This document shows, in pieces, positions 1,861 to 14,742 of a DNA stretch of 64,000 nucleotides. The stretch spans positions 3,534,001-3,598,000 of the forward strand of contig NC_008577.1 in NCBI RefSeq assembly GCF_000203935.1, written 5' to 3'. The notes under the pieces were generated by a model, which was not told the origin of the DNA, did no database searches, and saw only the letters and a list, made by a program, of their open reading frames with translations. This DNA comes from Shewanella sp. ANA-3. Lineage in GTDB: Bacteria; Pseudomonadota; Gammaproteobacteria; Enterobacterales; Shewanellaceae. The position numbers were made by a program, and so were the translations under genes. How positions within the stretch are numbered: position 1 is the first letter of the stretch; every line of letters begins with the position of its first letter.

Positions 1861-4332
1861 ATGCCAGTATTACAGCCTGTATTTCGCTTATCACTTATTG
1901 CACTCGCCTGCCTCAGTGCTTTACCACACACAGCCTACGCCGATGACACACCTTCCGCTCGCGATGAAAACGTCGAACGCATAACGGTATACGGCAGACA
2001 AAACTCTGTGGTGAAAAACTCAGGGCTGGCGACTAAGTCAGATATGTCCTTAATGGAAACCCCTGCGGCGGTTGTTATCGTTGACCAGGAGCTGATTAAC
2101 AGCCAAGGAGTCGATAATCTGCAGGACTTGATTCGCAATATCAGCGGGGTGACTCAAGCAGGCAATAACTACGGCATTGGGGATAACTTGGTTATTCGCG
2201 GTCTTGGCGCAAACTATACCTATGACGGCATGTATGGCGGTGCCGGCCTTGGCAACACCTTTAACCCCACTCGCTCCCTAACTAATGTGGAATCCGTTGA
2301 AGTTTTAAAAGGGCCAGCGACTGGGCTCTACGGCATGGGCAGCGCGGGCGGCGTGATCAACCTGATTGAAAAGAAACCGCAATTTGAATCCAAACACAAA
2401 ATCACCACTGAAGTTGGCCAGTGGGATACCTACTCGCTCGCCATCGATAGCACGGGGGGGATCACAGATGATCTTGCTTATCGTTTAGTCGCCAAAACCG
2501 CCCGCAGTGAAGGCTACCGTGATTTAGGCGCCGACCGTGATGAAGTGTTCGGCTCACTCAAGTGGGTATTAAGTGATAGCCAAGATCTGATGCTATCAGG
2601 CGCGTATATCAAAGACGCCATTGCCGTTGACTCCATCGGCCATCCAATCCGTATCTACAATGCCGATTCTGTCGGAGGTAAAACCGCTGGTGAAGTCACT
2701 TGGCAAGATTTGATAAACGATCCTAATGGTCAAGGCATACAGCTAACCGACGAGCAGCGTCAGCAATTGGCGGCATCACTCGCCAGTGGTGATGGCTTAA
2801 CTCCTTATTCCTTCGGTGACGCGGGATTAATTTCTCCCATGGCAAAGGATAATGAAGGTGAAGAATTAAGATTCAAGCTGACCCACAATATCTACTTTAC
2901 CGATAATCTGTTCCTCAACCAGCAGTTGCAATATCGCGACTACACCACAGGTTTTGCCCGCCAAACAGGGGCTTACAACTATGTGTATTGGAAGCGTAAA
3001 ATCAAGATTGGTGGCGTACCGACTGATGTGATTAACGAAGATCCCCGCGCGCCACTGGTTGAAAATGGTGTGCTCTATCCCTTTGCCGCCAGACGTCAGG
3101 AATACCGCCAGCTCGATGCCGAAGAAACCTCGTGGCAGTATTTTGCCGATCTACGTTACGACTTCCAAATCGGCAATATCGACAACGAATTGCTGGTGAA
3201 TGCTAACTACGAAGACCGCGATATTCGCCTCGAGCAATTCTCGATTTACGATGCAGACCAAGTCATTAAAAACAAACAAGGCGAAGTGATTTACCGTGGG
3301 TCGCTGCCATACATTTACGATATCCGCAATCCAAACTGGGGAACGGGTAAATTTGCCGACTACGATCCGCTCAAAACCGCCAACTACAATAAAAAAGTCA
3401 GCGCTTGGGGCTTAGGCGTGCAACATGTGGGTTATTTAGGTTATGGCTTTACCACCCGTGTGGGCGTGGCCTTTAACGAAATCAAACAGAGCTATGAGCA
3501 CTTAGGTGTGGATGAGCGCTACAGCGCGAGTCAAGCCAGCCCCACTCCTGAGGAAGATAGCAAAGATAACGGTGTGACCTACAACTTGGGCTTAACCTAT
3601 ATGCCCATTGACGATTTATCGTTTTTCGTCAATCACTCAAAGGGCCGCACCGCCTATAGCATCTTAGGCTCAATCACAGGGGAAAATACCGACCGCGAAG
3701 ACTCAGAATCCGTCAGTAACGATCTCGGTATGCGCTTTAAAGCCTTTGATGATCAAATGTTGGCCTCACTGGTGTTCTTTAAAAGCTCACGCACAAATGT
3801 GCCTTACACCAACCCAGACTATAACGCTGGTGTGTCAGGTGCCGAGGTGCCGGTGTACTTTTACGATGGCAGCGAAGATACCCAAGGGGTCGAGTTGGAT
3901 CTCAATGCCCATCTAAACGATAACTGGCGCATCAATCTTAACGGCATGTATCAGGATGCGAGGGATAAACAAAACCCGAATGACAAAGCCAACTACGACA
4001 GCCGTCAAAAAGGTGTGCCCTATGTGACAGCCAGTGCTTGGGTAACCTATGGTGCAGACTGGTTTGCCTTATCAAGCCCTATTGAGCTGAGTTTAGGTGC
4101 CAAGTATGTGGATGATAGAAGCACACACTCAAGCTCATTTGGTATCCCTGATGGTTATGTGCCGAGCTACACCTTAGTGGATTCTGCCATCAGCTATGCC
4201 ACCGACTCCTGGAAGTTACAATTGAATATCAACAACCTATTCAATAAAGACTATTACAGTAAGGCCATGTTCCTCGGTGGTATGCCGGGCGAAGAGCGTA
4301 ATGTGAAGCTGCAATATAGCTACAGTTTCTAA
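1861..4332 (+). CDS. TonB-dependent siderophore receptor
   Basis: Outer-membrane receptor of 823 residues that imports a ferric siderophore using energy from TonB-ExbB-ExbD. A signal peptide is visible at residues 1-27 (cleavage AYA|DD), then a TonB box (about 39-45, ERITVYG), the plug domain (about 55-170, with the NVESVEVLKGP...GSAGGVINL block) and a long beta-barrel ending in the terminal phenylalanine typical of outer-membrane barrels. The size and plug block fit the siderophore-receptor subfamily (FhuE/FpvA-like). ATG is preceded by GGGGGA. A Fur box just upstream indicates iron repression. The ligand cannot be told from sequence. It is transcribed alone and ends at a hairpin terminator. 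Confidence 0.93.
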   Translation: MPVLQPVFRLSLIALACLSALPHTAYADDTPSARDENVERITVYGRQNSVVKNSGLATKSDMSLMETPAAVVIVDQELINSQGVDNLQDLIRNISGVTQAGNNYGIGDNLVIRGLGANYTYDGMYGGAGLGNTFNPTRSLTNVESVEVLKGPATGLYGMGSAGGVINLIEKKPQFESKHKITTEVGQWDTYSLAIDSTGGITDDLAYRLVAKTARSEGYRDLGADRDEVFGSLKWVLSDSQDLMLSGAYIKDAIAVDSIGHPIRIYNADSVGGKTAGEVTWQDLINDPNGQGIQLTDEQRQQLAASLASGDGLTPYSFGDAGLISPMAKDNEGEELRFKLTHNIYFTDNLFLNQQLQYRDYTTGFARQTGAYNYVYWKRKIKIGGVPTDVINEDPRAPLVENGVLYPFAARRQEYRQLDAEETSWQYFADLRYDFQIGNIDNELLVNANYEDRDIRLEQFSIYDADQVIKNKQGEVIYRGSLPYIYDIRNPNWGTGKFADYDPLKTANYNKKVSAWGLGVQHVGYLGYGFTTRVGVAFNEIKQSYEHLGVDERYSASQASPTPEEDSKDNGVTYNLGLTYMPIDDLSFFVNHSKGRTAYSILGSITGENTDREDSESVSNDLGMRFKAFDDQMLASLVFFKSSRTNVPYTNPDYNAGVSGAEVPVYFYDGSEDTQGVELDLNAHLNDNWRINLNGMYQDARDKQNPNDKANYDSRQKGVPYVTASAWVTYGADWFALSSPIELSLGAKYVDDRSTHSSSFGIPDGYVPSYTLVDSAISYATDSWKLQLNINNLFNKDYYSKAMFLGGMPGEERNVKLQYSYSF

Positions 4333-4400: not shown

Positions 4401-6170
4401 TTAACTGACATTCTCCCGGTCGCCACGCATCAGCGACTCCAACTCAGCTTTTCCTTTATTGGATAAATCAAGGAGCTTGGCTAAATCATGTTGATGGGCC
4501 GAGCTGGCTATCACCAGCTTTTTATCGTGCTCGGCAAAAATCTTCACCCGTTCATTGGCTTGCACCTGCGATAAGCCTAAGCCCTGCAAAATCTTCTCAC
4601 TGGCGGATAAAGCCGAACCAAAGGTTTCACGGAACACATCGGTCACCCCAAGGCTCATCAATCGATAGGCATGGTTACGGTCCCGCGCCCGAGCGACGAT
4701 ATTGATATGGGGGAAATGGGTTTTCACCTGCTGGGCAATTTCAATCGAATCCTCAACATTATCAACAGCCAGCAGCAACAGGCGCGAGCGTGCAATCCCC
4801 GCAGACATCAACATATCTAAACGTCTGGCATCGCCAAAATAGACCTCACCACCGTATTTGCGGATCACATCCACATGGCTGGCATCCTTATCTAAGGCCA
4901 CAAACGGAATACCCGATGACGCTAAAATACGCCCAGTGATCTGCCCCACCCGCCCAAATCCGGCGATCACCACCTCAGATTCAGTCACATTAATGGTATC
5001 GGGCAAACGTGTATCCACCACCTTAGGTTTAGTGGCTCTAAAAAGCGTGAAAATCATCGGCGTGACTGCCATGGATAAACCGATGGCGAGCACTAAGATT
5101 TGGGCGATTTTATCATCCACTATGCTGGATAATTGCGCCTGCGACAGCAGCACGAAGGCAAACTCACCGCCTTCGGCCAAGATAAGGCCTAGAGCAATAC
5201 TCGGGCGCCATGCATGATGTCGTAAACGGCCAAGGAGCATCAGCACGAGAGTCTTAATCAGTAACATGCCCAGCAAAATCGCAAGTATGAGTAAGGGATC
5301 GGTTAAAAACAGCTTGAGATCCATACTCATGCCCACGGCCATAAAAAACAGCCCAAGCAGTAAGCCCTTAAAAGGTTCAATATCGGTTTCAAGCTGATGT
5401 CGGTAGCTGGAGTTCGCCAGCATAATTCCGGCTAAAAACGCCCCCATACCCGCCGATAGCCCCAGCCACTCCATCAATTCGGCACTGCCCATCACCAGCA
5501 ATAGTGCAAAGGCGGTTAACACTTCACGAACCCCGCTGCTGGCAACGAGTTTAAGTAACCGCGGCAACAGATATTTGCCTACCAACACAAAGCCCACTAA
5601 GGCCACACTGGTCCAATACCAAGGTACCGCATGGTGCTCAATCTGGGCCGAATTAGGCGCAAGGTAAGCGGTTAATAGCAACATGGGGATCACGGCGAGA
5701 TCTTGCATTAACAACACCCCAAAGGCATCGCGGCCCAGCGGGGTGGTCAGCAGTCTATGTTCGCTCATCAACTGCACCGCAAAAGCCGTCGATGACAAGG
5801 ATAACGCCGCGCCAACCACTAATGCAGCCTCAATGGATAAGCCAAACCCCCAAGCTAAACCGCCAATTGCCGCCCAAGAAAGGAGTAACTGACCACTACC
5901 GAGACCAAAGATGGCACTGCGTAGCTCCCATAACTTGCTCGGATTGAGTTCAAGCCCAAGCACAAACAGCATCAGTACCACACCCAACTCAGCAAAATGC
6001 AGCACGGCGGCGGGATCAGACACCAGCGCCATGCCTCCGGGGCCTAAAATCACCCCGGCAGCGAGGTAAGACAGAATCGGTCCTGCGCCAAAACGTTTGC
6101 CCAAGGGCACAAAAATCACCGCGGCCAATAAAAATAACAGTACAGAAGTGAGCAGACTCGACTCTTCCAT
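4401..6170 (-). CDS. CPA2-family cation:proton antiporter with RCK domain (KefB/YbaL-like)
   Basis: Inner-membrane monovalent cation/H+ antiporter of 589 residues. Residues 1-385 or so hold the 12-13 hydrophobic helices of the Na_H_Exchanger fold. From residue 400 a TrkA-N (RCK) domain begins with the nucleotide-binding motif GFGRVG and an acidic residue at the end of strand 2 (ALDKD), suggesting NAD(H)-type gating. The length and lack of a long extra C-terminal domain resemble E. coli YbaL/KefB. Kef-type glutathione-adduct gating is possible but not shown. The start ATG has GGAG seven bases upstream. It is monocistronic and convergent with the receptor gene. Confidence 0.9.
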   Translation of the reverse strand: MEESSLLTSVLLFLLAAVIFVPLGKRFGAGPILSYLAAGVILGPGGMALVSDPAAVLHFAELGVVLMLFVLGLELNPSKLWELRSAIFGLGSGQLLLSWAAIGGLAWGFGLSIEAALVVGAALSLSSTAFAVQLMSEHRLLTTPLGRDAFGVLLMQDLAVIPMLLLTAYLAPNSAQIEHHAVPWYWTSVALVGFVLVGKYLLPRLLKLVASSGVREVLTAFALLLVMGSAELMEWLGLSAGMGAFLAGIMLANSSYRHQLETDIEPFKGLLLGLFFMAVGMSMDLKLFLTDPLLILAILLGMLLIKTLVLMLLGRLRHHAWRPSIALGLILAEGGEFAFVLLSQAQLSSIVDDKIAQILVLAIGLSMAVTPMIFTLFRATKPKVVDTRLPDTINVTESEVVIAGFGRVGQITGRILASSGIPFVALDKDASHVDVIRKYGGEVYFGDARRLDMLMSAGIARSRLLLLAVDNVEDSIEIAQQVKTHFPHINIVARARDRNHAYRLMSLGVTDVFRETFGSALSASEKILQGLGLSQVQANERVKIFAEHDKKLVIASSAHQHDLAKLLDLSNKGKAELESLMRGDRENVS

Positions 6171-6393
6171 TAGGGCTCCACAACGTTAGCGAAAGGCAAA
6201 AAATAGGTATAGCCATAAGCAAAAAAAGCTTCGGCTACCGCTGGCAATCATACTCTAGTTAGGCAGGAAAAAGTGTGAAAAATTGACCTAAAAATCATCG
6301 AAAAAACGCAAGAAACAAGCGAAACAGCGAAAGAAGAAAACCGCGTTACATTAGCCTAAACAGTCAGTTACACAGAAAACACAACTCCTCCCC

Positions 6394-8178
6394 CTACTGC
6401 CTTGCAAACTGACTGGTAATATTGGTGGCGCGTTTATCTGAGGCTAAAGCGTCCTCATAACAGAATACACTGTTACGACCATTGGATTTTGCAGCATACA
6501 GCGCCATATCGGCACGGTGCAGCAGAGGGTCTAGGCTTAAGTCTTCTTTTGTCATACCGCTAACCCCAAAGCTCGCGGTGATAGTAAATTTATGCCCCGA
6601 CAGATGAGTATCAATGGCTTCGAGTCGTCGACGGCATTGTTCGGCAACTTCCATCCCCTTAGATTCATTGGCGTAAGGCAAGAATAGTGCAAATTCCTCA
6701 CCGCCAATCCGGGCAAACACATCACCATTGCGAACATGGGGTTTTAATACTTCTACGACTTTTTTAAGCGCCCAGTCACCCGTACCATGGCCGTAGGAAT
6801 CATTAATCCGTTTAAAATGGTCCAAGTCGAATAAAATCACGCAATAATCGCCCCCTCGGGCAGCGGCTTGCACAAACAGATTTTCCCCCAGATCTTGCCC
6901 TGCTCCACGGTTAAGCACGCCCGTCAAAGCATCCATTCTGGCCATGCGCATAAAACGCCGTTTTTGCAAATTACCCACCACTAACAAAATCGCGAGGAAA
7001 AACAGCCCGCCAACTAATATGGTGATAAACATCAGCATATTAGTGTACTCGCGCTCTTTTACCGTTTGCTGAGCGATGTAAAGTTCGCGCTCTTTATTCA
7101 GCAAGTTGATTTCACGCGCCTGCTCATCGGCATTAAACTTAGCCGCCTGATAAGCAAGGGTTTTCATCTTAGATTGGTCAAAAATCAGTTGATTATAATG
7201 TTGCTCTTTTCTGGAGTATTCATAGGCTTGCTCAAATTGTTTGTCCGCCGCCATCAACTCGGCAAACACTTTGTAGGCAATATGCTTATGTTCGATATAA
7301 CTATTATCATCGGGAAATGTGAGCACCTTAACAGCGTGACTTTTTGCTTGAACCAGCTCACCCGTTGCAAAGTAATTCTCGGCAAGTAGTGCATGCACAT
7401 GGCTGATTTCTAATTGAAATTGAAAAGCTTCATACCCTTTTAACGCTAATAGCAAAATCGCTCTCGCGCCTAAATAGTCACCCCGCTCCTGCAAAACCAT
7501 CCCTTTGCCTTTCATCGACATAGTCGCCAAAAGGGGAAATTGCTTCGCATCACAATATTGACGGCTATCTTCGAAGGCATCGAAGGTGTCGGGACTTTTC
7601 ACACCGAGCAAGTAAATCGCCCGCAGCAATTTGGCATGGCAAATATCGCGGACATCGGTTTCCTGAGCGAGTTGTAACACCTTATTGGCATAGAGGCCCA
7701 TATCGCTATAAGCGTCCATTTCAGAATAAATATTGGCAATTCTTAGATAAGAGTGACGTTTAATCGTAATATCATCGATATTCACAACTAGGGCTAATGC
7801 TTTGGCGACAGCCGATAAGGCTTTGTCATAGTCGCGCATCCCTATATAGACAGTGGCTTGATAGCTATAAACCGATGCTAATAATTCAGAACTTGTGATT
7901 AAGGTTTCGGCCTGATGCAGATCGTCTAACGCTTTGGCATATTCACCTGTGAAAAAATAACCTATCGCTCTATCTATCCTCAGTCGGCCTTGTTGCACTG
8001 AAGTTAATTTGCTGAATTCTTTCTCATATTCGGCCAGTTTTTTCTGCGCGGCGCTAAGATCAGATTGCAGTAATACATCAAGCTCATTGAGTGCCTGATC
8101 AAAATCGAGAGAGTTAGCCATCAACGCTGTCGAACACAAAGCAAAGATGGCTAATAGGGCACAACGCAACCGTTTCAA
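6394..8178 (-). CDS. periplasmic-TPR sensor diguanylate cyclase (GGDEF)
   Basis: Membrane-bound diguanylate cyclase of 594 residues that makes c-di-GMP from two GTP. A signal peptide or N-terminal anchor (1-22) is followed by about 340 residues of TPR-like helices, a coiled coil, one transmembrane helix (about 375-400) and a GGDEF domain. The active-site motif is GGEEF (492-496), and an intact product-inhibition I-site RxxD (RNGD, 483-486) lies five residues upstream. The likely start is TTG at 8178, six bases after the sonA stop codon, with no Shine-Dalgarno, so translation is probably coupled to sonA. This makes it the third gene of the borosin operon. Its input signal is unknown. Confidence 0.9.
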   Translation of the reverse strand: MKRLRCALLAIFALCSTALMANSLDFDQALNELDVLLQSDLSAAQKKLAEYEKEFSKLTSVQQGRLRIDRAIGYFFTGEYAKALDDLHQAETLITSSELLASVYSYQATVYIGMRDYDKALSAVAKALALVVNIDDITIKRHSYLRIANIYSEMDAYSDMGLYANKVLQLAQETDVRDICHAKLLRAIYLLGVKSPDTFDAFEDSRQYCDAKQFPLLATMSMKGKGMVLQERGDYLGARAILLLALKGYEAFQFQLEISHVHALLAENYFATGELVQAKSHAVKVLTFPDDNSYIEHKHIAYKVFAELMAADKQFEQAYEYSRKEQHYNQLIFDQSKMKTLAYQAAKFNADEQAREINLLNKERELYIAQQTVKEREYTNMLMFITILVGGLFFLAILLVVGNLQKRRFMRMARMDALTGVLNRGAGQDLGENLFVQAAARGGDYCVILFDLDHFKRINDSYGHGTGDWALKKVVEVLKPHVRNGDVFARIGGEEFALFLPYANESKGMEVAEQCRRRLEAIDTHLSGHKFTITASFGVSGMTKEDLSLDPLLHRADMALYAAKSNGRNSVFCYEDALASDKRATNITSQFARQ

Positions 8179-8184
8179 GATAAG

Positions 8185-8397
8185 TTAATTATTACCGTGA
8201 TTAACTAAAACAAAGGTTTGATAATTTTGGTCGCCATTCAAGACTTTTAGCTTTTCCATATCCCCAGTCATTACAGCGTTAATTTCTTCATCAGTTAATC
8301 CGTGGGCACGCATCACTGCCTCTGGATTCTGTTTATAGTCTTCCATTAACAGCGCATCTTGGCCTAGCTGGGTAAAAAAATCCGATAATGCAGACAT
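8185..8397 (-). CDS. sonA: borosin precursor peptide (SonA-like)
   Basis: A 70-residue RiPP precursor and substrate of the neighbouring alpha-N-methyltransferase. Residues 1-55 form a helical LigA-like/borosin-binding leader (FFTQLGQD..., NPEAVMRAHGLTDEEINAV, GDMEKL). The C-terminal tail, NYQTFVLVNHGNN, is the putative core. From memory, S. oneidensis SonA is methylated on backbone amides at residues 63 and 65 (Leu, Ile); here these positions are Val63 and Val65. ATG at 8397 has a good AAGGA six bases upstream. It lies 44 bp after sonM and six bases before the GGDEF gene. No protease or exporter gene is adjacent. Confidence 0.88.
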   Translation of the reverse strand: MSALSDFFTQLGQDALLMEDYKQNPEAVMRAHGLTDEEINAVMTGDMEKLKVLNGDQNYQTFVLVNHGNN

Positions 8398-8441
8398 ACT
8401 TATTCCTTATTGTTAATAATGACTCAATATCACACTTCAAT

Positions 8442-9233
8442 TTAGCCCAAATCTTCGGGACCGATCCCTAACTTAGCCAAAATAGCATAGTTGTACTCCA
8501 GCTTTTTTGCTGGCGGAATTAACAACGTACTAATCGGCGTTAAGTGTGCTTGGGGTAAATTCGCTAAAGGTAAACGCTCGATACGGGGGGCTTGGATTGG
8601 CAAATTGGCCGCTTCGTAGATGACCACCTCATGGTTGAGGGGATACCATTGATTTAACTGCTCCACGAGGATCTGCAACCTGTCACTCGAGGTATGAAAT
8701 TGGGTTAGGGTATGTTCGCCCGCAATGGCGATTTGCCAGAGTAATAAGTGGGTGGTGGGATCCGGCACATGGTTGAAAAACATAAACTGGCTGGCTTCAA
8801 AGCTTTGATGCCCTGAGTTGCCGGGATCAATCCCTAAGTCGGCCCACAGGCAAGCTTCGGCCGAAATCCCCGGCTCCATCTTGGCCGAAAACCCTTCGGC
8901 CTTGGCGCGAGTTATCGCCATATGGGATACACAGGCAAATACCCCCGGATGACCATAGAGTGCACACACGGTTTTTTTACCCGCTCTCACCGCATCTAGA
9001 ATGGCATTGACCATTTGCTCGTAGGTGTCTCGGCGATTTTTAACTTCACCATTTTGCGCATAAAACTGCTGCAAATTGATGACATTGGGGTTGAGCTTCG
9101 TCAACCAACGCTGCGAGAAACCGTCTGGTAAGAGTGAAAATACAATATCGGCATGTTCAATATAGCTGCGGCTTAATACGCTAATTTGCCCCGCGAGCTG
9201 TAACCCCGTACCCACACAAACGAGTGATCCCAA
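8442..9233 (-). CDS. sonM: borosin peptide backbone alpha-N-methyltransferase (SonM-like)
   Basis: SAM-dependent tetrapyrrole-methylase-fold enzyme, 263 residues. It has the glycine-rich N-terminal loop VCVGTGLQLAGQ, the VNAILDAVRAGKKTVCALYGHPGVF block and EPGISAEACLWADLG. This family normally methylates corrin precursors, but the gene's position directly before a SonA-like peptide identifies it as the trans-acting (split) borosin methyltransferase described for Shewanella oneidensis. It methylates main-chain amide nitrogens of the SonA tail. The start codon is TTG at 9233, with AGGAG six bases upstream. It is the first gene of the operon sonM-sonA-GGDEF. Confidence 0.9.
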   Translation of the reverse strand: MGSLVCVGTGLQLAGQISVLSRSYIEHADIVFSLLPDGFSQRWLTKLNPNVINLQQFYAQNGEVKNRRDTYEQMVNAILDAVRAGKKTVCALYGHPGVFACVSHMAITRAKAEGFSAKMEPGISAEACLWADLGIDPGNSGHQSFEASQFMFFNHVPDPTTHLLLWQIAIAGEHTLTQFHTSSDRLQILVEQLNQWYPLNHEVVIYEAANLPIQAPRIERLPLANLPQAHLTPISTLLIPPAKKLEYNYAILAKLGIGPEDLG

Positions 9234-9594
9234 TGGTCTCTCCTAAAAATGCACTACCGCAGGCTGATTGATGAACTCAAGCCATAACTTTGATAGCAAC
9301 CGCTAAACCCTATGCTACTCCCTAAAGTCGCGAGAAAATGCTAACACCATCAAAGTAAAACACTTTCACAACTTTACCCATGTTTTCACAACATTGCTAC
9401 ATGACTATTTCGACTTTGCTTAACTTTACGGTTTTTCAGCGCAATTTACCGCGGGGCAGCTTATTTAGACGCAATCATCAGCATAAAAATCTTCACTCAT
9501 CGCGAACTAAAACGCGCCGCTTAGGTCGAAAACTCACACAATTGCAACGATAAGCGCCGCAACGCCCAATTACCCTTGTCATAAGGGGGAGTGC
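9234..9594. other. 361-bp divergent intergenic region, sonM / bamE
   Basis: Must contain the promoter of the borosin operon (minus) and that of bamE (plus, at its right end). I see no ORF and no strong palindrome. It is AT-rich between about 9340 and 9430. Confidence 0.6.
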
Positions 9595-9605
9595 TTGGGT
9601 ATGAT
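9576..9605 (+). promoter_or_regulatory. sigma-70 type promoter of bamE
   Basis: TTGTCA (9576-9581), an 18-bp spacer and TATGAT (9600-9605). Transcription would start near 9612. That excludes translation from the upstream ATGs at about 9595-9604 and supports the start at 9637. Confidence 0.6.
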
Positions 9606-9636
9606 GGCCGCCAGATTTTCAGAAGTAGCGCATACA

Positions 9637-10128
9637 ATGATCAATAAAAAGCAAAGTCTTACCCTGCTGAGCGCCATTGCGCTCTCAGTTTCGCTCAGTG
9701 CCTGTAGCGTGTTTGATTGGCTGATCTATAAGCCCGATATTCCGCAAGGCAACTACATGGAGCCGCAACAGGTTGAAAAGTTGCGTATCGACATGACCAA
9801 AGAGCAGGCCGAATACATTCTTGGTCGCCCAGTATTGCGTGACAGCTTTGCCGATGACACTTGGTATTATGTGTATCACTATAAGAGTGGCCGTGATGCG
9901 AGCATTACCCACAAAGAACTGATCCTGCACTTTACCGGTAACAAATTAAGCTTAGTGAAGGGCGACTATGACTTAAGCCCAGAGTTTAATACGCCGCTTG
10001 AGCAGAGTAAGTTACCTATGGCCAACACCGCTGAGTCTGCGCCACTCGTGCCAGCACAGCGCCCAGATGAAAAGCCATTAGTGAAAGAAAATCAAACCGA
10101 AGCGCAAGTTCAAAAGCCAATCAAGTAA
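9637..10128 (+). CDS. bamE: outer membrane assembly lipoprotein BamE (SmpA/OmlA)
   Basis: Lipoprotein subunit of the BAM complex that folds beta-barrel proteins into the outer membrane. From the ATG at 9637 it is 163 residues: a lipoprotein signal peptide with lipobox LSAC, then the BamE core (YMEPQQVEKLRIDMTKEQAEYILGRP, DTWYYVYHYKSG) and a longer Pro/Glu-rich tail than E. coli BamE. Earlier in-frame starts would bury the lipobox too far from the N-terminus and fall inside the promoter. It is transcribed alone toward a hairpin terminator and is convergent with rnfH. Confidence 0.93.
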   Translation: MINKKQSLTLLSAIALSVSLSACSVFDWLIYKPDIPQGNYMEPQQVEKLRIDMTKEQAEYILGRPVLRDSFADDTWYYVYHYKSGRDASITHKELILHFTGNKLSLVKGDYDLSPEFNTPLEQSKLPMANTAESAPLVPAQRPDEKPLVKENQTEAQVQKPIK

Positions 10129-10966: not shown

Positions 10967-11204
10967 AGGGCTTGGCACTCTCAATCTAAGTAAACACGCT
11001 GTCTCAAGCGAACTCCGCGCGCCCTACTCTCTAGGGAAGCTAACAAAATTGGTTTGGATTCTACCACGATACTTAAAAAACGCACCCCTCACATATCCCT
11101 ATGATGACTAAGCAAAACCGCATAAAAAAACAGCAATAAAATGATGGGGGCTTGAAATAGCCCAAATAAACCCTTATATCCATTTCAAATTGATTCACCG
11201 TGCG

Positions 11205-11210
11205 TATAAT
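11205..11210 (+). promoter_or_regulatory. -10 box of smpB (TATAAT)
   Basis: A perfect TATAAT ends 9 bases before the smpB ATG, which would leave an almost leaderless mRNA. The -35 region is weak (around 11182-11188). Confidence 0.45.
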
Positions 11211-11219
11211 GGCGCCATT

Positions 11220-11711
11220 ATGGTAAAGAAAAACTCAAAAAAAGCCGCGCCTGCGACAATCGCACGCAATAAGCGCGCAACCTTCGAATACCGTTTCGAA
11301 GAAAAAATGGAAGCCGGCATTTCCCTCATGGGATGGGAGGTGAAGTCTATCCGCATGGGTAAAGTGAACCTATCGGACTGCTACGTCTTCTTAAAAAATG
11401 GTGAAGCCTTTATGCACGGCTGTACCATTATTCCGCTTAATACCGCATCGACCCATGTGGTGTGCGACCCGATTCGACTGAAGAAATTGCTCTTAAGTCG
11501 TAAAGAGTTAGATAAATTAGCTGGTCTTGTTGAGCGCCAAGGCTACTCGATTATCCCTATCTCCATGTACTGGCGTAAAGGGGCTTGGGTCAAAGTAGAA
11601 ATCGGCCTAGGTAAAGGTAAAAAAGACCACGACAAGCGTGAAGATACCAAAGCACGCGAGTGGGAAGTGGAAAAAGCCCGCGTAATGAAAAAGGAAAAAA
11701 CGCGCGGATAA
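11220..11711 (+). CDS. smpB: SsrA-binding protein SmpB
   Basis: A 163-residue tmRNA-binding protein that brings tmRNA-Ala to stalled ribosomes for trans-translation. Conserved blocks: [45 protein letters not shown] and the basic C-terminal tail [26 protein letters not shown], which reads the empty mRNA channel. I start at 11220 by comparison with relatives. There is no Shine-Dalgarno, and a TATAAT lies at 11205, so the message may be leaderless. Its RNA partner ssrA follows 72 bp downstream. Confidence 0.96.
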
Positions 11712-11744
11712 TGAACAAACGATTGAACTTGCAGCAAATGATAC

Positions 11745-11773
11745 TAGGTTATCGCCACGCTACGAGTTACAAT
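11745..11773 (+). promoter_or_regulatory. possible ssrA promoter
   Basis: TACAAT (11768-11773) is spaced 17 bp from a weak TAGGTT. It lies just ahead of the mature 5' end at 11784. Confidence 0.35.
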
Positions 11774-11783
11774 CAACTTTCTT

Positions 11784-12138
11784 GGGGGCGATTCTGGATT
11801 CGACAGGATTCACGAAACCCTGGGAGCATGCCGAGGGGCGGTTGGCCTCGTTAAAAGCCGCAAAGTTATAGTTGCAAACGACGATAACTACGCTCTAGCC
11901 GCTTAATGCCGCTAGCCATCTACCACACGTTTCGCACATGGGCAGTGGATTTGATGGTCATCTCACATCGTGCTAGCGAGGGAACCCTGTCCGGGGGTGA
12001 ACCGCGAAACAGTACCGGACTCACCGTGTGGGATCCTGTCTTTCGGAGTTCAAACGGTTAAACAATAGAAAGACTAAGCATGTAGCGCCTTGGATGTAGG
12101 TTTTCTGGACGCGGGTTCAAGTCCCGCCGCCTCCACCA
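11784..12138 (+). ncRNA. ssrA: tmRNA
   Basis: A 355-nt one-piece tmRNA. The 5' end GGGGGCGATTCTGGATTCGA and the 3' end ...GTTCAAGTCCCGCCGCCTCCACCA form the tRNA-Ala-like acceptor stem (seven pairs including one G-U). The tag frame starts at resume codon GCA (11874) and encodes ANDDNYALAA before TAA (11904-11906), a typical gamma-proteobacterial tag. It works with SmpB to free stalled ribosomes and mark nascent chains for ClpXP. The 3' end is the insertion site of the adjoining island, which restores the tRNA-like end. Confidence 0.97.
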
Positions 12139-12150
12139 AATGTAAGAACG

Positions 12151-12176
12151 AAGACGTCTCAGGACGTCTTTTTTCT
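12151..12176 (+). terminator. rho-independent terminator after ssrA
   Basis: AAGACGTC-TCAG-GACGTCTT hairpin followed by TTTTC. It ends ssrA transcription at the island's left edge. Confidence 0.85.
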
Positions 12177-12262
12177 TATCTAAAATAAGATAAAATCAAT
12201 AACTTAAATAAATAACTGTTCTATTTTTGTCCAAAAGCATTTGGCAACATCCAAGATTTTAT

Positions 12263-12281
12263 GTAACACTTGTTGTAACAC
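12263..12281. repeat. left integrase arm-type site pair (GTAACAC x2)
   Basis: GTAACAC at 12263 and 12275 (12-bp spacing), with an inverted copy GTGTTAC at 12304-12310 and related GTTGTTAC at about 12329 and 12354. The same pair with the same spacing recurs at the other island end, which points to arm-binding sites of the integrase. Confidence 0.6.
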
Positions 12282-12378
12282 AGTGTACCAACCACCCCAG
12301 CCGGTGTTACTAAAAACACCGAAATGCTGTTGTTACAGGGTTTAAGGTGCCCCTTGTTGTTACTACGAGGAGAGCATA

Positions 12379-13605
12379 ATGCCGCGAATGGCCAAACCGT
12401 TAAATGACACAGAAGTTAGGCAAGCTAAACCGAGGGAGAAAGAATACAACCTCAGTGATGGCAATGGGCTGATGCTCAGAGTAAGGCCTATCGGTTCCAA
12501 AACTTGGCTCCTCAATTACAGCCGCCCCACTTCGCGTAAACGCGCAAATTTGACCTTAGGCACTTACCCTGAATTAACACTCGCAGATGCTCGGCGCAAA
12601 GCTTTAGATGCCCGTAAGCTTATCGCCCAAGACATTGACCCACAAGAACACCGAGAGGGACAACGGCAAGCGCTCGCAGCAATACATGAACACACATTCG
12701 AGAATGTGGCGACACAATGGTTCGATATCAAGAAAACCGAAATAACCGAGAACCATGCAGCCTCAACCTGGCGTTCCTTTAAATTGCATGTACTTCCATA
12801 TATCGGTTCAACTCCCATCAGCCAAATCACGGCTCCGATGGTGATTGAAATATTTCGCCCTATTGAAGCTAAAGGTTCGTTAGAAACAGTCAAGCGCCTG
12901 ACTCAACGCCTCAATGAAGTAATGACCTACGCCGTCAATACGGGGTTAATTCATGCCAATCCACTTTCTGGTATTAAAGCAGCCTTTAAAAAGCCTAAAA
13001 AGCAAAAGATGGCAGCGATGGCGCCTTATGAATTACCGGAATTATTATCAACCTTGTCCCGCGCGAGTATTAAACGAGTCACTAGGCTGTTAATAGAATG
13101 GCAACTGCATACGATGACACGTCCGAATGAAGCAGCAGGTGCTCGTTGGGATGAGTTCAATTTCGATGACCGTTTATGGACAATCCCGGCTGAACGCATG
13201 AAGATGAAGCGGGAGCATGTAATTCCACTTTCTGACGCTTGTATGTTGATATTGCAAGAACTTAAGAGCATTAGTGGTCATCGAGAATATCTATTCCCTG
13301 CTGATCGTAATCCAAAAACACACAGCAATGTGCAAACGGCTAATGCCGCGCTAAAAAGAATGGGGCTGCAGGACAGAACAACTGCCCACGGTCTTAGAGC
13401 CTTAGCCAGCACGACATTGAATGAACAAGGGTTTGATTGGGATGTTGTTGAAGCAGCGCTCGCTCATACCGACAAAAACCAAGTACGCAGCGCTTATAAC
13501 CGCGCCACATATCTTGAACGTCGAAGAGAAATGATGGAATGGTGGAGTAAAAGTATTAAATCTGCTGAAGCTAACATGTTAATTCAGTCATTACCCATTA
13601 GATAA
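12379..13605 (+). CDS. P4-type tyrosine integrase of the island
   Basis: A 408-residue site-specific recombinase. The N-terminus (residues 1-90) is the DUF4102/Arm-DNA-binding domain (LNDTEVRQAKPREKEYNLSDGNGLMLRV), the middle is a SAM-like core-binding domain, and the C-terminus is the catalytic domain with Arg248 (TRPNEAAGAR), His337 and Arg340 (HGLR), His363 (HTDKNQ) and Tyr378 all present. It is therefore probably active. ATG has GAGGAG upstream. The gene lies 240 bp from the ssrA 3' end and catalyses insertion and excision there, normally with an AlpA-type partner. Confidence 0.95.
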   Translation: MPRMAKPLNDTEVRQAKPREKEYNLSDGNGLMLRVRPIGSKTWLLNYSRPTSRKRANLTLGTYPELTLADARRKALDARKLIAQDIDPQEHREGQRQALAAIHEHTFENVATQWFDIKKTEITENHAASTWRSFKLHVLPYIGSTPISQITAPMVIEIFRPIEAKGSLETVKRLTQRLNEVMTYAVNTGLIHANPLSGIKAAFKKPKKQKMAAMAPYELPELLSTLSRASIKRVTRLLIEWQLHTMTRPNEAAGARWDEFNFDDRLWTIPAERMKMKREHVIPLSDACMLILQELKSISGHREYLFPADRNPKTHSNVQTANAALKRMGLQDRTTAHGLRALASTTLNEQGFDWDVVEAALAHTDKNQVRSAYNRATYLERRREMMEWWSKSIKSAEANMLIQSLPIR

Positions 13606-13629
13606 TTTTTAGCGAATGGATGCTCTAAA

Positions 13630-14439
13630 ATGAATAACGCACTAACAGCGATCCACTCATTAAGCCCTTATTTCAAGTTGCCAATAGATTTCGTGCCGGT
13701 TAGTCACGGTATAGAAGTATTGGGCTTACATAAGGATGAATTAGATGTTTTATACCAGCAGGAGCAAATTCAGTACTGTGTCAATATAAAAGAAAACTTA
13801 ATGATTGACTCAGAGAATCCTGCAGAAGATTTAGATCTTAAAATAGATATGCAAAATCAAATAATGACAAAACCTAGCTTACCTAATTGCACCAAATTAA
13901 TTAGCCCTTTATCGAATGATAAATATTGGAAAATTTCTGGAGTTTGGGCATTAAGCTTTGGGAGATATTTGCCAGATTTGAGGGTTTCGTTAGAACGTCA
14001 GGGTCTAATAATTCCTGGAACTCAAGGCGCTTGGGGCATTTGGGTTGTTGAAAATCAACCTCTTCCATTAGTTCAATCCGTTATTTGGAAACGGGATTTA
14101 GAACGAATAATCTACTCACTAAAAACTGGAGTTTGTCTTCCTAAATGGTATGAATCTTTTCCATCAACAGAAAATAAATTTCCAGATGATGAAGGAATTT
14201 CTGAAGGTCTCAAACCTGAACACGGCAACTCTATTCGCTTTGGCAGACAGCGTGAAGAAATTCTATCGTTTGCTCTATACGTCAAACATGAATTTCCTGA
14301 ACAATGCACAACTGTCGCTAAATGGATTGAAACTATCGATGAAAAAGCCCTATTAAAATGGCCTGAAACTGGTCAGCCGCCTCAAAGTAGGGATGCCATT
14401 AGAAAGTTATTAAACAAAGCCCTCAACATCAAGAGTTAA
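13630..14439 (+). CDS. hypothetical island protein
   Basis: A 269-residue protein I do not recognise. It starts 24 bp after the integrase and is visibly A+T-rich in base use compared with core genes, suggesting transfer. There is no signal peptide or membrane segment. The C-terminal 60 residues are helical (EILSFALYVKHEFPEQC..., ending SRDAIRKLLNKALNIKS), and the middle carries several tryptophans (KYWKISGVWALSFGRYLP, GAWGIWVVENQ). Proteins of this kind often sit between integrase and alpA in P4-like islands. Function unknown. Confidence 0.75.
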   Translation: MNNALTAIHSLSPYFKLPIDFVPVSHGIEVLGLHKDELDVLYQQEQIQYCVNIKENLMIDSENPAEDLDLKIDMQNQIMTKPSLPNCTKLISPLSNDKYWKISGVWALSFGRYLPDLRVSLERQGLIIPGTQGAWGIWVVENQPLPLVQSVIWKRDLERIIYSLKTGVCLPKWYESFPSTENKFPDDEGISEGLKPEHGNSIRFGRQREEILSFALYVKHEFPEQCTTVAKWIETIDEKALLKWPETGQPPQSRDAIRKLLNKALNIKS

Positions 14440-14550
14440 TCTGGCTATTAATTTAGTACTGGCAACTAAATTTTAGTAAACGGACGTCCTGCTAGCATTC
14501 CCTTAATCTGCCCTTGTCTTAGAAAAACCACAGACATACGAGGGCACACC

Positions 14551-14742
14551 ATGAAAATTCTTAGACTCCGCGATGTAATGGCCGTTACCGGTTTAGCACG
14601 TTCGACTGTATATGACTTTATCAACAATTCAGACTTTCCCAAACCCGTTCAGCTTGGTGATCGCGCAGTAGGCTGGGTGGAGCAGGAAATTATGACTTGG
14701 ATTGAACAACGAGTTCAAAAACGAGATGAAGCTCTACTGTAA
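14551..14742 (+). CDS. AlpA-family phage regulator / excisionase-like
   Basis: A 63-residue MerR-like winged-helix DNA-binding protein of the AlpA family. LRLRDVMAVTGLARSTVYDFINN is the helix-turn-helix, followed by the typical DFPKPVQLGDRAVGWVEQEIMTWIEQR. In P4-like elements AlpA activates or acts as recombination directionality factor for the integrase. ATG has a good GAGG upstream. It is the first of three closely spaced plus-strand genes (alpA, small protein, Rep-like). Confidence 0.9.
   Translation: MKILRLRDVMAVTGLARSTVYDFINNSDFPKPVQLGDRAVGWVEQEIMTWIEQRVQKRDEALL

Follow-up and report, generated by a model that had tools for sequence, protein, structure and literature searches.

The locus and the systems closest to it

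The closest described relative of the locus analysed here is the SonM-SonA pair of Shewanella oneidensis MR-1, a split borosin system in which L63 and I65 of the peptide SonA are backbone-methylated, and whose small gene cluster is conserved across most of the Shewanella genomes sequenced (PMC8429565). We analysed its counterpart in Shewanella sp. ANA-3, within a stretch of 64,000 nucleotides (the window; contig NC_008577.1, positions 3,534,001 to 3,598,000, forward strand), and all coordinates below are those of the window. There, sonM, sonA and a gene encoding a protein with tetratricopeptide repeats (TPR), a transmembrane (TM) segment and a GGDEF domain follow one another on the minus strand, separated by 44 and 6 bp; this layout had been given by an earlier reading of the sequence alone (the original prediction) and was confirmed by the coordinates of the open reading frames (ORFs). 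We consider it probable, from the sequence comparisons described below, that the three genes form a module leading from a peptide to cyclic di-GMP (c-di-GMP), in which the N-methylated core of SonA would be the ligand of the periplasmic TPR domain of the cyclase. Core and sensor appear to travel, swap and vanish together as a signal and its receptor would, which suggests a function for split borosin peptides.

The three genes and the two parts of SonA are as follows.

8442..9233, minus strand: sonM, 263 aa, TTG start, AGGAG 6 nt upstream
8185..8397, minus strand: sonA, 70 aa, ATG start, AAGGAA 5 nt upstream
8239..8397, minus strand: sonA codons 1-53, the leader (borosin binding domain, BBD) and the first part of the tail
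8185..8238, minus strand: sonA codons 54-70 and stop, the core NGDQNYQTFVLVNHGNN
6394..8178, minus strand: TPR-TM-GGDEF diguanylate cyclase gene, 594 aa, TTG start 6 nt past the sonA stop

The identification of a split borosin pair followed by a diguanylate cyclase, already made in the original prediction, holds by Pfam and by matches to PDB 7ltc. SonM aligns end to end with 7ltc_A (E 3e-178; 2 differences in 263 residues, counted by eye) and scores 74.9 bits with TP_methylase; its catalytic residues Y58, R67 and Y71 are present and are invariant in 22 aligned homologues. Residues 1-69 of SonA match 7ltc_B (E 1e-35), with differences mostly past residue 50, and LigA gives 22.3 bits on SonA, below the cut-off of 25.3. 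As in other type IV borosins, the alpha-N-methyltransferase carries no fused core, and a separate precursor with a BBD leader, the 70-aa SonA, adjoins it 44 bp downstream. On the third gene product, GGDEF scores 136 bits and TPR_2 27.2 bits against a cut-off of 27.0. The active site reads GGEEF (492-496), and both the I-site R483..D486 and the metal ligands D451-L-D453 are present; judged by its sequence, the protein is a diguanylate cyclase with an intact active site.

The likeness to S. oneidensis MR-1 covers SonM, the SonA leader and the adjoining of methyltransferase and precursor genes. It does not extend to the core, since the window carries the other of two core types (FVLVNHGNN versus YLVISHGN); a SonA with the 69 residues shown for 7ltc_B is found at one of the type-2 loci compared below (L112). 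In the window SonA, V63 and V65 take the positions of L63 and I65 of MR-1, and methylation is expected there.

As for earlier descriptions, a word search of the main text of PMC8429565 shows that GGDEF, cyclase and operon do not occur in it, and its Discussion states that no type IV pathway had so far been linked to a final product. That type IV clusters occur widely among bacteria is credited to Cho et al. and Imani et al. in PMC11285071. The label 'GGDEF, GGDEF-sequence-containing domain' stands among the borosin architectures in the Figure 1 legend of PMC11395268, so that a GGDEF element in a borosin context is already in print; the passages of PMC11395268 and PMC11285071 that deal with these clusters give no role, receptor idea or exchange. 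Among the matches listed by title and abstract opening, no borosin appears as a c-di-GMP signal, and no receptor role, core/sensor exchange or cysteine pair is described, in a literature set whose scope leaves out key split-borosin cluster papers. What is new here is therefore the receptor reading together with its evidence, and we do not claim the bare sonM-sonA-GGDEF neighbourhood as new. With a cognate receptor whose output can be measured, the role of split borosins can be tested in a laboratory strain, and the receptor reading predicts which residues set specificity. If it is true, a backbone-methylated ribosomally synthesized and post-translationally modified peptide as ligand and a direct c-di-GMP output would join the known forms of bacterial peptide sensing, and engineers would gain orthogonal peptide-sensor pairs.

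Matched and exchangeable types of pheromone and receptor are known from agr. Pheromone and receptor of comQXPA come in such types as well (PMC4408185). The core and sensor types described below are likewise matched and exchangeable, and the peptide therefore probably tells kin by type. The comQXPA locus of Bacillus resembles ours in that modifying enzyme, peptide and sensor adjoin and define communication groups by type (PMC4408185, PMC4008528). It differs in using isoprenylation and a histidine kinase acting on ComA, and in our case SonM lies outside the swapped block. SahM, a relative of SonM, is reported to accept foreign cores (PMC11285071), a tolerance that would allow the modifying enzyme to stay outside that block.

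Joint inheritance and joint replacement of core and sensor

Of 129 Shewanella genomes, 112 have a SonM match, among them that of the window. We fetched 107 orthologous loci and 12 of the listed paralogous loci (about 50% identity); L100 and L139, which lie at contig ends, were left out of the synteny count, and L110 and L319 were fetched and set aside. A SonA-like ORF is present at all 119 fetched loci, with E-values that are weak (up to 0.007) at the paralogous ones. A GGDEF ORF follows sonA on the same strand at 106/106 orthologous and 11/11 paralogous loci uncut by contig ends, so the loss of the GGDEF gene in most relatives, named in the original prediction as the outcome that would speak against it, did not appear. 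Conversely, no TPR sensor match at E 1e-5 was found in the 17 SonM-less Shewanella genomes (one of them, G112, only 52% complete), versus 8/8 SonM-carrying controls. The divergent bamE-like gene that flanks the operon upstream is kept in 15 of these 17 genomes, and the surrounding region is thus present there. The window's own genome (G000) has no second copy of the sensor at E 0.01. It holds 58 GGDEF domains over the Pfam cut-off which, with some 4,500 genes assumed, sets the chance of a GGDEF neighbour at an estimated order of 1%; the possibility that the GGDEF gene is a chance neighbour was ruled out by the synteny and the co-loss.

We then compared the parts of the operon between the window and three loci of the other type, L112, L114 and L115. 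DNA identity is 96.5-97.1% in sonM and 89-90% in SonA codons 1-57, falls to 58-64% in core codons 58-70 and to 57% in the TPR part, and rises again to 92-97% in the TM region and 86-95% in the GGDEF part. Sliding identity places the divergent block between about 8250 and about 7250, which corresponds to SonA codon 50 through cyclase residue 310; within this exchange cassette the identity to type-2 strains is about 50%, and on both sides it is mostly at least 90%, with a second drop past 6500 in L112. The reverse case is seen in S. oncorhynchi (L123), in which core and TPR part are 90% identical to the window, sonM 80% and GGDEF 70%. The cassette and the parts of the cyclase are located as follows.

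7250..8250, minus strand: exchange cassette, comprising the SonA core and the cyclase up to about residue 310 (sliding and per-part identity)
8116..8178, minus strand: signal peptide, residues about 1-21 (basic, then hydrophobic N-terminus; AxA-like site by eye; hydropathy of relatives)
7246..8109, minus strand: TPR superhelix, predicted periplasmic sensor, residues 24-311 (AlphaFold2)
7945..8022, minus strand: TPR repeat 1 (TPR1), residues 53-78, candidate specificity block (codon comparison)
7639..7641, minus strand: Cys180 codon, invariant in 74/74 homologues and 100/100 Shewanella sequences
7552..7554, minus strand: Cys209 codon, possible disulfide partner, 74/74 homologues and 99/100 Shewanella sequences
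6937..7236, minus strand: single long signalling helix, residues 315-414, holding the TM segment at about 383-401 (AlphaFold2; hydropathy)
6472..6942, minus strand: GGDEF domain, residues 413-569 (Pfam)

For the comparison of types, the core type was set by motif, the sensor type by DNA clustering, and the tree was built from sonM, bamE and kefC, the kefC-like gene being the downstream flank of the operon after 223 bp. L130, whose core belongs to neither type, was excluded. The core type agrees with the sensor type in 20/20 loci; each changes four times on the flank tree, and 4/4 independent pairs are concordant. Extra sonA copies fit this pattern: L115 and L127 carry an extra run-on sonA with a type-1 core upstream of a type-2 pair, L117 shows the reverse, and in all three the sonA copy adjoining the cyclase matches the sensor type of that cyclase. 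Judged from these sequences, then, putative ligand and predicted sensor domain co-vary inside conserved flanks, as in a pherotype locus, with four independent changes only. As a side observation, two sonA copies with unlike cores in L109 enclose a second sonM match, a partial one that covers residues 121-263.

Ordinary divergence of cyclases could also lower the identity to L112, L114 and L115. Three other diguanylate cyclases of the window's genome (L310, L312 and L316) were searched as controls in seven genomes. L310 was found in G054 only, which left L312 and L316 usable. L312 is 99% identical in G054, 86% in G113, 79% in both G023 and G126 and 72% in G064, with no match in G065 or G071; for L316 the values are 99% (G054), 83% (G113), 82% (G023), 80% (G126), 78% (G065), 72% (G071) and 69% (G064). 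Identity of the usable controls thus falls roughly with kinship. The window cyclase breaks the order that the controls follow, with 97% in both G054 and G113, 67% in both G126 and G023, 64% in G065, 88% in G064 and 77% in G071. This rejects in part the explanation by ordinary divergence, although the controls show that sensor cyclases generally diverge faster than flanking genes.

A finer match exists within type 1. The core of the window reads QTFVLVN and that of L111, L116, L117 and L118 QAFLLVN, and L116 comes from G113, a genome that its computed kinship places in the window's own species. Between these subtypes, identity is 75-78% in the core DNA and 68-70% in cyclase residues 57-76, and the 120 bp that lie between the two blocks are 97-100% identical. 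Each of L111, L116 and L118 departs from the window at 20 of the 26 codons for residues 53-78, with another residue encoded at ten of them; the silent changes in this TPR1 block indicate gene conversion. In L113, whose core is identical to that of the window, only 2 of these 26 codons differ, both silently, even though its GGDEF part is more diverged. Cores with V or I at position 63 go with GYFF at sensor residues 73-76 and cores with L63 with SYIF or NYIF in 8 of 9 type-1 loci; L117 has a frameshift at these residues. That both the core and the TPR1 block have moved is, on this codon comparison, best explained by selection for matched pairs. The most variable contact is probably made by the residues around the first methylation site (63) with TPR1. 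Together with the co-loss and the joint replacement, this finer match backs the link between a methylated peptide and c-di-GMP signalling that had originally been suggested.

Joint replacement might also arise by hitchhiking, with diversifying selection acting on the sensor for some unrelated ligand and the same recombination tract taking the 3' end of sonA along. Several results count in favour of this view or weigh against a matched signal and receptor. Core and sensor adjoin on the DNA, so that a single recombination tract can carry both, and the silent changes just mentioned show that recombination moved the TPR1 block too. Distance tests across the genus (n=100, without L036, L064, L077, L107, L117, L119 and L120, of which L117, L119 and L120 were restored by DNA alignment in the comparison of types) gave a partial Mantel r of 0.53 for core and sensor, with 0/2000 permutations reaching it; since core and GGDEF (0.16) and leader and sensor (0.51) also gave 0/2000, the test is not specific for the core. 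TPR1 stands out in type 1 (r 0.83) and not in type 2 or genus-wide, where the block-wise correlation singled out no TPR repeat. The four independent changes give a sign test p of 0.125, the floor for four pairs. The spacer upstream of sonM is only 72-76% identical in L112, L114 and L115 and 71% in type-1 L113, hence it does not follow type, and the cassette is not the sole low stretch. In those genomes of L112, L114 and L115 that contain them, the controls also drop to 78-82%.

However, the block is bounded on both sides, by the conserved sonA leader and by the GGDEF domain. SonM and sensor are missing together, and SonA-cyclase pairs are duplicated as wholes. What speaks most strongly against plain hitchhiking is the two-block change of core and TPR1, separated by near-identical DNA. 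Hitchhiking consequently appears unlikely to us, and we retain the proposal of a matched peptide and sensor.

The cyclase as a candidate peptide receptor

The AlphaFold2 model of the full-length cyclase has a mean predicted local distance difference test (pLDDT) score of 89.7 and a predicted template modelling (pTM) score of 0.60; the TPR part modelled alone reaches a pLDDT of 95.5. In the model, the TPR helices end at residue 311 and the long helix starts at 315, where the exchange cassette ends. Hydropathy peaks near residue 383 in near relatives of the cyclase. Compared by VIA-align 2, the TPR model is closest to LGN-peptide complexes (Z up to 26.1), Rap with its pheromone (up to 25.0), APPBP2 with its degron (24.1) and NprR with its peptide (23.6); MalT, Tom70 and O-GlcNAc transferase score no higher than 22, below these peptide-binding TPR entries. 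RRNPP receptors are cytoplasmic and act by DNA binding, phosphatase activity or as anti-activators. The sensor resembles the RRNPP members Rap and NprR in the shape of the TPR superhelix (Z 19.7-25.0 over about 290-310 residues). Unlike them, the cyclase carries a signal peptide and a TM helix and has GGDEF as its output, hence it would work like RRNPP receptors without being a member of the family. According to the models, what the sensor shares with peptide-binding TPR proteins is a fold, not a shown function.

In 74 aligned homologues of the sensor, a domain that changes fast, only C180 and C209 are invariant. Exactly two cysteines occur in 97 of 100 Shewanella sensors, the window's included, and a pair 24-36 residues apart is present in 11/11 paralogue proteins (10 at aligned sites; in L148 the ORF is short). 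This conservation suggests that C180 and C209 may form a disulfide bond. The output end is conserved as well, with GG(D/E)EF in 94 and an R..D I-site in 70 of the 100 Shewanella sequences.

The association extends beyond the genus. SonM was detected at 1e-20 in 95 of 394 genomes of the order, Shewanella included, and 40 loci from 38 genomes were picked across genera, not at random. A TPR sensor is present at 37 of them. At 29, a TPR-GGDEF gene is close by (on the other strand in L195, behind a second SonM in L176); two stand-alone TPR proteins follow the borosin pair in L175 and L177, keeping the cysteine pair without an output domain (Pfam was run on the L175 pair only); and L179, L196 and L214 have no sensor. 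Outside Shewanella, the cysteine pair is found in 34/35 proteins with TPR sensor and GGDEF domain and in 4/4 stand-alone TPR proteins. A search of named records gave 585 confirmed relatives, and among the best 80 a TPR sensor lies beside SonM in 78 and 1.9 kb away in L254, while L257 is without sensor on a contig that ends 1.4 kb after sonM. Of these 80, 37 come from Shewanella or Parashewanella, including many loci already counted, and 43 from elsewhere, a few of which repeat the picked loci (L275, for example, is L180). The 43 include Kangiella, Colwellia, Rheinheimera, Arsukibacterium, Neiella and Dyella as well as the betaproteobacterial Undibacterium and Rhodoferax. Gene order is either SonM-SonA-cyclase or SonA-cyclase-SonM, and one SonM accompanies two SonA-cyclase pairs in L269, L275 and L288, among others; the pair, not the trio, is therefore the unit that multiplies.

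We propose the following scenario. SonM would methylate the backbone of the SonA core, as published for the S. oneidensis pair, and the core would then reach the periplasm or the outside of the cell. There it would bind the TPR superhelix, as co-inheritance, joint replacement and fold suggest, and the long helix that crosses the membrane would relay this binding to the GGDEF domain, altering c-di-GMP synthesis. Extending this more tentatively, we still lean towards regarding split borosins as a form of Gram-negative signalling that recurs in Gamma- and Betaproteobacteria, in which a methylated peptide would be read outside the cytoplasm by a disulfide-bearing TPR cyclase and the core/TPR1 combinations would define communication groups.

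Some observations sit poorly with a peptide receptor. No signal sequence is visible in SonA, and in the window the operon has no exporter or leader protease gene as a neighbour. Of the 40 picked loci, 28 gave a SonA-like ORF and 12 gave none. TPR-histidine kinases take the place of the cyclase at 6 of these 40 loci (L185, L198, L208 and L213 called by Pfam, L204 and L206 by reading of the sequence; a second sensor protein of L206 stands outside the kinase-domain check), and none of the six full-length sensors of this kinase type, which are without GGDEF, has the cysteine pair; they are possibly a second, independent receptor class. The fold comparison is equivocal too, since LGN ties with Rap, four other Rap entries reach only 19.7-20.3, no better than generic TPRs, and TPR superhelices resemble one another. 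Finally, the cyclase ORF is broken or short in 7 of the 106 orthologous loci while SonM and SonA are kept; these loci are L036, L064, L077, L107, L117, L119 and L120, and true decay, phase variation or errors of sequencing may lie behind them.

The lack of a visible exporter would suit a peptide that stays near its producer, the sensor reading peptide production, redox state through Cys180/Cys209 or the state of the envelope, and the invariant cysteine pair could act as a redox switch. Such self-monitoring seems very improbable to us, as the switching of types and the leftover sonA copies of the other type fit recognition between cells better. Alternatively, the borosin might be an antagonist of the bacteriocin kind and the cyclase a sensor of danger or of self-resistance in place of a receptor for a kin signal. 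Toxin-immunity pairs are likewise polymorphic and swapped. According to PMC8429565, membrane permeability and resistance to proteases are favoured by N-methylation of the backbone. Against this, the partner is a signal transducer, by its largely conserved GG(D/E)EF motif and by the histidine kinase at some loci, and no transporter or immunity-type gene adjoins the operon in the window; as had been predicted for protease, exporter and immunity genes alike, the neighbours are only the bamE-like and kefC-like genes. An antagonist role is in our opinion rather improbable, and a kin signal sensed by the cyclase remains the reading that we prefer.

Junctions and surroundings of the operon

The cyclase start at a TTG six bases past the sonA stop, with no Shine-Dalgarno-like stretch visible before it, was borne out as originally described. 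A TTG that follows the sonA stop immediately or 6 nt later is common to 20/20 loci of the window's clade in the comparison of types; in L130 the start is GTG. With the longest ORFs, the sonA-cyclase gap is at most 20 nt, or the genes overlap, in 92 of 102 loci. These short gaps and the conserved TTG make translational coupling from sonA to the cyclase plausible. All 11 type-2 alleles have GGTGA just before the sonA stop, which could be a candidate Shine-Dalgarno for the cyclase.

From the sonM start to the end of the GGDEF gene, the scan of the minus strand found one promoter-like match, inside the cyclase gene (6614-6587), and no terminator-like site, with counts not above those of shuffled sequences; neither element was found between sonA and the GGDEF gene, where the original prediction had placed a possible objection to its operon. 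No promoter-like site was found in the minus-strand spacer 9234-9594 upstream of sonM, and an Rfam search of 6000-9700 found no RNA.

A gene for a TonB-dependent receptor (1861-4332) lies near the operon, and nothing ties it to the operon. On the other side, a tmRNA gene (11784-12138) stands behind smpB and is followed by a tyrosine integrase gene (12379-13605) and an AlpA-like gene (14551-14742). The region 11190-14742, 2.5 kb away from the operon, is probably a genomic island with ssrA as its integration site.

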